Assembly (NCBI RefSeq): GCF_020880975.1
Contig: NZ_JAJIWP010000003.1
Span: 930,001 to 994,000 of the forward strand
Reading direction: 5' to 3'
From: Mucilaginibacter sp. UR6-1
GTDB taxonomy: Bacteria; Bacteroidota; Bacteroidia; Sphingobacteriales; Sphingobacteriaceae
DNA: 64,000 nt
Both the position numbers and the translations under genes were made by a program. The notes below the pieces were generated by a model, which saw only the letters and a list, made by a program, of their open reading frames with translations, was not told the DNA's origin and searched no databases. Each line of letters starts with the position of its first letter. The stretch's first letter is position 1. Positions 39,777 to 42,326 of this stretch are shown here, piece by piece.

Positions 39777-40211
39777 ATGTTTATCAGCAAAAAAACATTT
39801 ATCACTATTGGTTTACTGGCGGTTGTTGCCGCTACGTCCATGATGTCGTTTAAAAGCGAAGCACCCGCCGAAGAAAAAAAGTTCAAAAACCTTAAAGTAT
39901 TACCCAAAAACATTACCGAAGACCAAATGCACGAGGTGATGGAAGAGTGGGAGCATGCCCTGGGGGTGCGCTGTAGTTTTTGCCACGTGCGCGATACAGC
40001 CACCCGTAAGATGGATTGGGCGAGTGATGCCAAACCCGAAAAGGAAATGGCCCGCAGCATGTATAAAATGACGGCCATGCTTAATAAAAAATACTTTCAT
40101 GCCAAAAAGAATGAACTGGGTATGATGGCTGAGGAAGGTGTGAACTGCAATAGCTGCCACAGGGGGAACGCGCATCCGGAAGTTGAGCCTGCAAGCAAAA
40201 AAAAGGAATAG
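39777..40211 (+). CDS. Di-haem c-type cytochrome (reaction-centre cytochrome c subunit-like)
   Basis: The 144-residue secreted protein has an N-terminal hydrophobic signal or anchor (residues about 6-24) and two haem-binding motifs, CSFCH near residue 66 and CNSCH near residue 124. The segment KNLKVLPKNITEDQMHEVME is characteristic of the small c-type cytochromes that share a domain with the photosynthetic reaction-centre cytochrome subunit. Bacteroidota lack such reaction centres, so it is a periplasmic electron carrier of unknown partner. Confidence 0.88.
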   Translation: MFISKKTFITIGLLAVVAATSMMSFKSEAPAEEKKFKNLKVLPKNITEDQMHEVMEEWEHALGVRCSFCHVRDTATRKMDWASDAKPEKEMARSMYKMTAMLNKKYFHAKKNELGMMAEEGVNCNSCHRGNAHPEVEPASKKKE

Positions 40212-40358: not shown

Positions 40359-40703
40359 ATGGAAAATTACGAAACTTTAGTGGATGCTACTAACGACCTT
40401 TTAAAAAGGGGATATACAGCCAATCTGAGTATGGATGAAGACTCAGTAAATGATAAGGAACGCGGCCTTGAAATGCTGCCTGATGAGTTTGAGATAGACG
40501 AGTTTTATCGTTTTGAAGGGCCAAGTAGCCCATCAGATACATCGATTGTGTATGCCATCAGTTCCGAAAAATATAACCTGAAAGGTGTTTTGGTAAACGC
40601 TTATGGTGTTTATGCCGATAATGCCAGTGGTGCGCTTTTAGCCAAGCTGCACCATAACCAGGTGAGTGATAACTTACACGGTGAGGACAGGCCTAAAGCT
40701 TAA
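40359..40703 (+). CDS. Small conserved acidic protein, function unknown
   Basis: The 114-residue soluble protein has a helix (ETLVDATNDLLKRGYT), an acidic middle (MLPDEFEIDEFYRFEG) and a strand-rich end (IVYAISS, KGVLVNAYGVYA). Proteins of this type occur widely in Sphingobacteriaceae and, as I recall, are often labelled phosphoribosylpyrophosphate synthetase. That label looks wrong: the protein is far too short and lacks the PRPP-binding motif. A strong terminator follows. Confidence 0.72.
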   Translation: MENYETLVDATNDLLKRGYTANLSMDEDSVNDKERGLEMLPDEFEIDEFYRFEGPSSPSDTSIVYAISSEKYNLKGVLVNAYGVYADNASGALLAKLHHNQVSDNLHGEDRPKA

Positions 40704-40746: not shown

Positions 40747-40781
40747 AAAATAGCGACGGATTTAATATCCGTCGCTATTTT
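40747..40781. terminator. Bidirectional hairpin terminator
   Basis: A perfect 15-bp stem (40747-40761 and 40767-40781) with loop TTAAT and A/T-rich ends can terminate both the small acidic protein gene and the convergent helical-repeat gene, whose distal TAG (40775-40777) lies inside it. Confidence 0.88.
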
Positions 40782-40888
40782 GTTTTACGTGCATTGAGTT
40801 TTTTTAGTATCATTTTTCCGCGGGTTTGTATGGCGGCAGTGCCGTCGCGCATTAAAAATTCCATTTGGTTGGCAAGTTCATCGGCTAT
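40775..40888 (-). pseudogene. In-frame coding remnant downstream of the TGA (C-terminus of the helical-repeat gene)
   Basis: Directly after the TGA, in the same frame, 37 codons read IADELANQMEFLM, then RDGTAAIQTRGKMILKKL and a basic end, finishing at TAG in the shared terminator. There is no ribosome-binding site or start at its beginning; the first ATG is nine codons in. The amphipathic helices and the exact fit between TGA and terminator suggest a severed C-terminus of the upstream gene rather than an independent gene. Confidence 0.6.
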
Positions 40889-41344
40889 TCAGTTATAACG
40901 GTTACAAAGATTGAGCAATGCTTCGGCTGATGAGGCTTTTACCGCTACAAGTATTTCAGGATCTATCAGCCAGTCAAAAAGCTTTTCAACTACCGGTTCC
41001 AGGTTAAGTCTTGCTAATTTTTCTTTAACCTTTGCAGATGCCTTTGAGCCGGTAAGCCGTATGATAGTATTGGCATAATGCCGCTGGCTGCTGGGGTATT
41101 TAACGTCAGCAAACCGTTGAAACAAATAATGTAATTCATTTATAAGTTCATCAGCATTTGCGATGACGAGGTTCTCCAGCAGCCATGATGCCCTGAAGGC
41201 GATATTTTTATCATGATGAAACGTAATATCTATCAGTTCCGGCAACGGAAATTTATGCTCGCGCATAAGTGCTGTGAGCGATAATACCCTGGCTTTGCCA
41301 ATGGTGGCCGAGATATGTTTAATGAGTTCGCCTTGTGTAAGCAT
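40889..41344 (-). CDS. HEAT-like helical-repeat protein, apparently truncated by a TGA
   Basis: The reading frame encodes about 151 residues from ATG 41344 (MLTQGELIKHIS), all helical, with a HEAT-like pattern (ITFHHDKNIAFRASWLLENL, EILVAVKASSAEALLNL). An upstream in-frame ATG at 41377 adds 11 residues and is less likely. The frame stops at TGA 40889-40891 after LCNRYN but continues open for 37 further codons to a TAG inside the terminator. The continuation looks like the natural last helices, so the gene may have suffered a TGG-to-TGA change. Function is unknown; HEAT-type proteins usually bind proteins. Confidence 0.7.
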   Translation of the reverse strand: MLTQGELIKHISATIGKARVLSLTALMREHKFPLPELIDITFHHDKNIAFRASWLLENLVIANADELINELHYLFQRFADVKYPSSQRHYANTIIRLTGSKASAKVKEKLARLNLEPVVEKLFDWLIDPEILVAVKASSAEALLNLCNRYN

Positions 41345-41432: not shown

Positions 41433-42326
41433 ATGTCAAACATCAGCCTGATTATTGAAGAGCGCCCGCGCGACATTGGTAACTTTTTAGTTGGCCGCCT
41501 GTTGCCCTTCAGCAGTAAACGCATGGTAGGGCCTTTTATCTTTATCGATCACATGGGGCCTGCCAGGCTGAGCGGTTATCAAAATATTGATATCGCGCCG
41601 CATCCGCACATTGGCCTGTCAACGCTTACATATTTGTTTGAGGGCGCTATTATGCATAAGGACGGTATGGGCTCGGAGATGGAGATAAAACCCGGCCAGG
41701 TAAACTGGATGACAGCGGGCAAAGGTATAGCCCACTCCGAACGTACGCCCGAATACCTGCGCACATCCGAAAAACAGTTGCACGGTTTGCAGATATGGGT
41801 AGCCCTGCCCAAACACCTGGAGCAAATGGAGCCGGAGTTTTACCATGCCGAAGCTGATGTGTTGCCTGAGTGGGAGCATGGCGGTGTAAATTATAAACTG
41901 ATAGCGGGTAGGTTTGCTGGCAAAGCATCTCCGGTGCCGGTATACAGTCCGCTGTATTTTTTAGAGTTAAAAAGTAACGGCAGGCAAACCGTTAAAATAG
42001 GTGCCGAACTTTATGGTGAATGCGGGCTTTATATTTTAGAAGGAAGTATAGAAAGCGAAGGCACAACCTATCAGCCTAAAGAATTACTGGTGGCCAAAAA
42101 CAGCCGGCTTTGCGAGTTTACCATGGCCGCGGGTACCACCATTTACTTTTTTGGTGGTGAACCTTTCCCGGAGGGCCGCTTTATTTACTGGAACTTTGTG
42201 GCCACCAGCCAGGAGCTTATAGAACGGGCTAAGCAAAAATGGCGTGATCAGGAGTTTGCCCCTGTGCCCGGCGAAACGGATTTTATACCATTACCACCCG
42301 AGCCCAGGGGACTGAAGTTTAAGTAA
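41433..42326 (+). CDS. Pirin-family bicupin protein
   Basis: The 297-residue cytoplasmic protein has the pirin N-terminal cupin with the metal-binding motif HPHIGLSTLTYLFEG (His at about residues 54-56) and GKGIAHSE, followed by a second cupin (residues about 165-275). Pirins bind iron; some oxidise flavonoids such as quercetin, others act as regulators. The ATG at 41433 is used because the longer upstream frame runs back over the neighbouring gene. It ends two bases before the stop of the convergent amidase gene. Confidence 0.9.
   Translation: MSNISLIIEERPRDIGNFLVGRLLPFSSKRMVGPFIFIDHMGPARLSGYQNIDIAPHPHIGLSTLTYLFEGAIMHKDGMGSEMEIKPGQVNWMTAGKGIAHSERTPEYLRTSEKQLHGLQIWVALPKHLEQMEPEFYHAEADVLPEWEHGGVNYKLIAGRFAGKASPVPVYSPLYFLELKSNGRQTVKIGAELYGECGLYILEGSIESEGTTYQPKELLVAKNSRLCEFTMAAGTTIYFFGGEPFPEGRFIYWNFVATSQELIERAKQKWRDQEFAPVPGETDFIPLPPEPRGLKFK

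Follow-up and report, generated by a model that had tools for sequence, protein, structure and literature searches.

Probable recent Trp-to-stop mutation in an accessory gene for a predicted HEAT/ARM-like helical-repeat protein of Mucilaginibacter sp. UR6-1

Background

The closest described counterparts of the gene considered here are the recent bacterial nonsense alleles surveyed in PMC7918605, which makes the case that constrained in-frame stops in bacteria are common and short-lived, and estimates independent hits at the same codon to be rare, at about 0.015 of orthologous stops. Our gene resembles those alleles in having a single in-frame stop, a frame that is intact on both sides of it, a dN/dS well below 1 and an apparently short life, and differs from them in the independent mutation of this codon in another species. 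A TGA at a conserved tryptophan site also recalls UGA reassignment of the genetic code 4 type, and the Hirsh-type G24A variant of tRNA-Trp promotes UGA readthrough according to PMC13092985. At the level of the encoded protein, the nearest likenesses are HEAT/ARM-like alpha-solenoids, such as designed armadillo repeats and the archaeal HEAT-like TON_1937, which share the all-alpha repeat architecture of the predicted model.

A reading frame interrupted at a conserved tryptophan

The window, by which we mean the whole stretch of 64,000 nucleotides analysed, comes from a genome of 4.57 Mb in 12 contigs (completeness 99.97). A first-pass annotation had described a helical-repeat gene split by an in-frame TGA, after which the frame stays open for 37 codons and closes with a TAG inside a terminator, and this description was borne out, with the frame running from an ATG at 41344 on the minus strand, a strand that the annotation had left unstated (Table 1). 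The junction reads RYN-stop-IADEL and the tail IADEL...ARKTK, and the TGA replaces residue 152 of an intact protein of about 188 residues. The closing TAG sits within an inverted repeat whose hairpin is common to the convergent 114-aa ORF; the repeat scan lists this hairpin in the plus orientation, and the T-run of the minus strand was taken from the sequence by eye. Neither Pfam nor NCBIfam gave a match at E <= 0.1 for the product of that convergent ORF. The plus strand also has, at 39777-40211, a gene for a small cytochrome of c type with kinship to the cytochrome subunit of photosynthetic reaction centres (NF033196, PF02276), although the genus is not known to be phototrophic.

Table 1. Features surrounding the in-frame TGA, in window coordinates
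Feature	Position	Strand	Basis or remark
Truncated ORF, 151 codons + TGA	40889..41344	-	Predicted HEAT/ARM-like helical repeat protein; orthologues and fold
In-frame TGA, codon 152	40889..40891	-	Trp in 73/76 genus copies read, 1 Leu, 2 TGA including the window
Conserved 37-codon tail past the TGA	40778..40888	-	Matches the two C-terminal helices predicted for the full-length orthologue
TAG closing the frame beyond the TGA	40775..40777	-	Sequence
15-pair inverted repeat, T-runs on both sides, terminator-like hairpin between two convergent genes	40747..40781	.	Repeat scan
Divergent neighbour, pirin-family cupin gene	41433..42326	+	PF02678, PF05726
Convergent neighbour, 114-aa protein	40359..40703	+	ORF list

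That 37 codons happen to stay open would by itself say little, and it is the orthologue alignment that makes the shared frame certain: three relatives with 76-79% identity are full length over residues 1-189 and have the same tail end, which rules out a chance open frame beyond the TGA. With the read-through protein as query, orthologues were found in 130 of 149 Mucilaginibacter genomes at E <= 1e-20, and 233 of 301 genomes of the family gave a match at E <= 0.001. Residue 152 was read directly in 76 of the 130 genus copies, the window counted among them and two loci from other genera (L028 and L073) excluded; the other 54 matches contained no stop. Rather than ending at the same TGA and lacking the tail, the orthologues read here retain the tail and, with few exceptions, tryptophan at the site, as the earlier suggestion of a TGG-to-TGA change had anticipated; the lone leucine is in L047 (G343), and the only TGA besides that of the window is in a second species, G348. 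The tail is conserved at least as well as the head, with a majority-residue conservation of 0.70 after the stop, 0.66 before it and 0.975 at the site itself. The closest relatives (L003, L004 and L005) have TGG at the site and lack the stop, which is accordingly the derived state; the closest named relatives with the gene are Mucilaginibacter sp. JRF (79% protein identity) and M. roseus (78%).

Outside the genus, no TGA was seen at the tryptophan site in group g14, which we take to be Pedobacter (119 of 145 genomes matched), or in group g16, presumably Sphingobacterium (84 of 93 matched). The stops listed for Pedobacter lie in matches that reach the end of the protein, and from this reach they were taken as terminal. 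In Sphingobacterium G466 there are two stops, both terminal and beyond the tryptophan, which is present at its site; G463 has a degraded copy with several stops that gave no match when the site was read, and the matches of the other flagged Sphingobacterium copies reach the protein's end. A compensating second copy was ruled out in the window's genome, which has a single match at E <= 0.001. Tandem second copies of 33-40% identity occur in some congeners (G162:C86, G204:C2, G246:C265, G177:C13 and G311:C1).

Predicted fold of the intact protein

The helical-repeat character ascribed to the protein from its sequence is upheld by structure prediction: the AlphaFold2 model for the full-length JRF protein, built from a five-row alignment, is all alpha with ten helices (mean pLDDT 90, pTM 0.86). 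Foldseek searches of the PDB matched it weakly to armadillo and HEAT-like solenoids, with a best E of 1.8e-3. The TGA coincides with the beginning of the helix predicted for residues 151-167, and truncation there would remove the last two helices. Unlike the solenoids that it resembles, the protein has no Pfam match over cut-off, a HEAT/ARM profile included, all Pfam matches being below it, and three orthologues gave no NCBIfam match at E <= 0.1. A sequence search of the PDB returned a single match at E 0.4, which was not taken as meaningful, and a literature search on Mucilaginibacter and HEAT repeats returned nothing. The model thus describes a HEAT/ARM-like helical-repeat protein that belongs to no curated family, and the predicted fold allows no more than a guess at a role in binding or as a scaffold.

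TGA as a stop codon

TGA is a normal stop in this genome. The release factor RF2 is present, and of the 56 ORFs in the window that reach 100 codons without overlapping one another, 10 end in TGA. Among the 42 tRNA genes found, all 42 of which were identified by ARAGORN, none has a UCA anticodon, and the one tRNA-Trp gene has the anticodon CCA. A search of the genome for tRNA-Sec gave nothing over cut-off and eight sub-threshold matches, which ARAGORN calls as Ser, Leu, Tyr, Gly and Phe tRNAs, and selenocysteine insertion was rejected on these grounds. The same searches listed three tRNA-Cys(GCA) genes, at G000:C5:705464 (L140), C1:403314 (L146) and C1:762027 (L149), one of them with a low score, 47.5 bits, in the tRNA model.

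In-frame stops were surveyed across 204 kb of the contig, by comparison with M. roseus (154 ORFs, 58,848 codons) and with G168 (143 ORFs, 54,265 codons). Both relatives agreed on one in-frame stop alone, that of the helical-repeat gene, and three further flags, among them G000:C6 806525-806854 (G168 only), were raised by one relative each. A first ORF list had included overlapping antisense ORFs, and its many flags were superseded by a non-overlapping survey. Among the flags that this second survey raised on window targets, those at 34658-34095 and 46646-46251 were dropped because they are antisense to or overlap longer genes on the other strand, and that at 43417-42335, raised by G198 only and close to the N-terminus, was read as a difference in start site. 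Small or single-relative flags were also seen in G198, G348 and G082 and were left unused. Reassignment of UGA to tryptophan was rejected because this genome, unlike those using code 4, keeps RF2 and lacks a UCA tRNA among its 42, has one in-frame site only and ends many ORFs with TGA.

Constraint on the tail and age of the stop

The branch leading to the window was examined with a branch-specific codon model fitted to six sequences by a purpose-written script in which the parameters were lightly penalised, on a GTR+G tree topology in which one internal branch has a support of 61. On this branch omega is 0.20 for the codons ahead of the stop and 0.075 for those of the tail, and an omega of 1 in the tail is rejected, being worse by 4.1 lnL units. 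The fit loses 3.1 lnL units if the tail is allowed to drift neutrally over the final 25% of the branch, and 12.3 if it does so over the entire branch. If the whole gene rather than the tail alone is relaxed, the cost relative to the best-fitting fraction is 1.2 lnL units for a quarter of the branch and 2.6 for half of it, so that the limit set on the age of the stop is weak. No relaxation of constraint is detectable in the tail, as is expected if the stop is very recent or the tail still translated. Either the stop arose recently, then, or translation still reaches the tail at times, and the codon-model data fit both.

Repeated breakage in the genus

The TGA of G348 (L067:593-1138, G348:C30), a distant congener, lies at the same tryptophan codon and is also followed by an intact tail. 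The loci closest to it, those of G082 and G300 (79% and 78% nucleotide identity), have TGG there, and this TGA is thus independent of the one in the window. Nonsense codons occur elsewhere in the same gene at residue 90 (G174, L096), at residue 82 in G373 (L045), a fragmented draft of 710 contigs in which the stop could be an error, and at codon 4 of the alignment in G305 (L087), at the very start of the gene, where another start may bypass it. Frames are split between pieces in G288, G131, G195, G334 and G359, giving at least five frameshifted copies, and G357, in which the C-terminus differs after residue 158, was not put in any class. At least nine genomes of the genus with a reported completeness of 99 or 100 were without a match at E <= 0.001. 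For any given pair of nonsense events, the probability of striking one and the same codon is 0.010-0.034 according to the transition bias assumed, and five nonsense events make ten such pairs, so that one shared codon is unremarkable, the more so in a gene that breaks repeatedly by nonsense and frameshift alike. The helical-repeat gene is an accessory gene that has been broken or lost repeatedly within the genus.

Explanations for the stop

Of the three origins offered in the first-pass annotation, namely a recent nonsense mutation, a sequencing error and programmed readthrough, the first stands as the best, and the last is without positive support. We consider it very probable that a recent Trp-to-stop mutation has truncated this accessory gene for a HEAT/ARM-like protein. 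Against this reading, the constrained tail would also fit continued low-level translation, the TGA of G348 at the same codon is a mild oddity, and the limit on the age of the stop is weak should the whole gene have relaxed after it. Its main rival is an error of sequencing or assembly, in which the genome would really have a sense codon and the gene would be intact, as might be suspected from a tail that has no sign of decay; a single doubly supported in-frame stop in some 59,000 codons is likewise what a rare error would leave. Substitution errors of such a kind are rare in modern consensus sequences, however, the assembly looks good by its contig number and completeness, and just one such event appears in 204 kb, so that an error seems unlikely and the base is probably called correctly.

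A functional readthrough of the UGA, with tRNA-Trp inserted usefully often so that the full-length protein is lowered rather than abolished and the tail stays under selection, would account for the constraint on the tail and for the independent TGA followed by an intact tail in G348, but a recent mutation accounts for the constrained tail equally well. The frequency of constrained in-frame stops in bacteria, as argued in PMC7918605, would also favour it, but at this site the TGA is not conserved, being confined to two of the 76 genus copies read, with two independent origins, and absent from what was seen of the site in Pedobacter and Sphingobacterium. Folding of the 80 nt downstream of the TGA is no more stable than that of shuffled sequences (z 0.60), and a conserved readthrough element was rejected, the stop being neither conserved nor followed by an unusual RNA structure. 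Programmed readthrough is thus unsupported, and functional readthrough in the broader sense is very unlikely. The tRNA-Trp itself offers one further point in its favour. The lineage's tRNA-Trp(CCA), at L133:1501-1572 (G000:C6:267307-267378), has A24 when numbered by sequence, as does the Hirsh-type variant, with U11-A24 in the D-stem and G27-U43 atop the anticodon stem in our own numbering. It is identical in 10 of 11 genomes checked, nine of Mucilaginibacter and one of g14, and 94% identical in Sphingobacterium G016; being common to genomes with intact copies, and not specific to those that carry the stop, it does not explain this stop. That an A24 tRNA-Trp, the only one seen in the family, makes Trp-to-UGA mutations leaky and tolerated, and so recurrent at the same tryptophan here and in G348 as a reversible damper of expression, is highly improbable, and would, if true, be the only reading with a wider meaning. 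Least credible of all is a selected truncation, in which loss of the last two helices would be advantageous or regulatory and would have been selected on two occasions. That a TGA arose twice, independently, in the same codon, and that the cut lies where a predicted helix begins, could be read in this way, but the nonsense codons at 4, 82 and 90 fit indiscriminate breakage, and among ten pairs at the above chance per pair one coincidence is not surprising.

On the nonsense reading, then, the conserved tryptophan codon would have mutated to TGA in this genome, and ribosomes would terminate there through RF2 to give a 151-residue product without the last two solenoid helices, which make up the conserved final fifth of the protein. 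Such a product would probably be unstable or inactive, and a small full-length fraction might still arise from the ordinary leakiness of UGA. The locus would then show with unusual clarity how a gene looks just after it has been broken, in a gene that recurrent loss marks as accessory. For annotation, the ORF is better marked as truncated or as a possible pseudogene than as a 151-aa protein.
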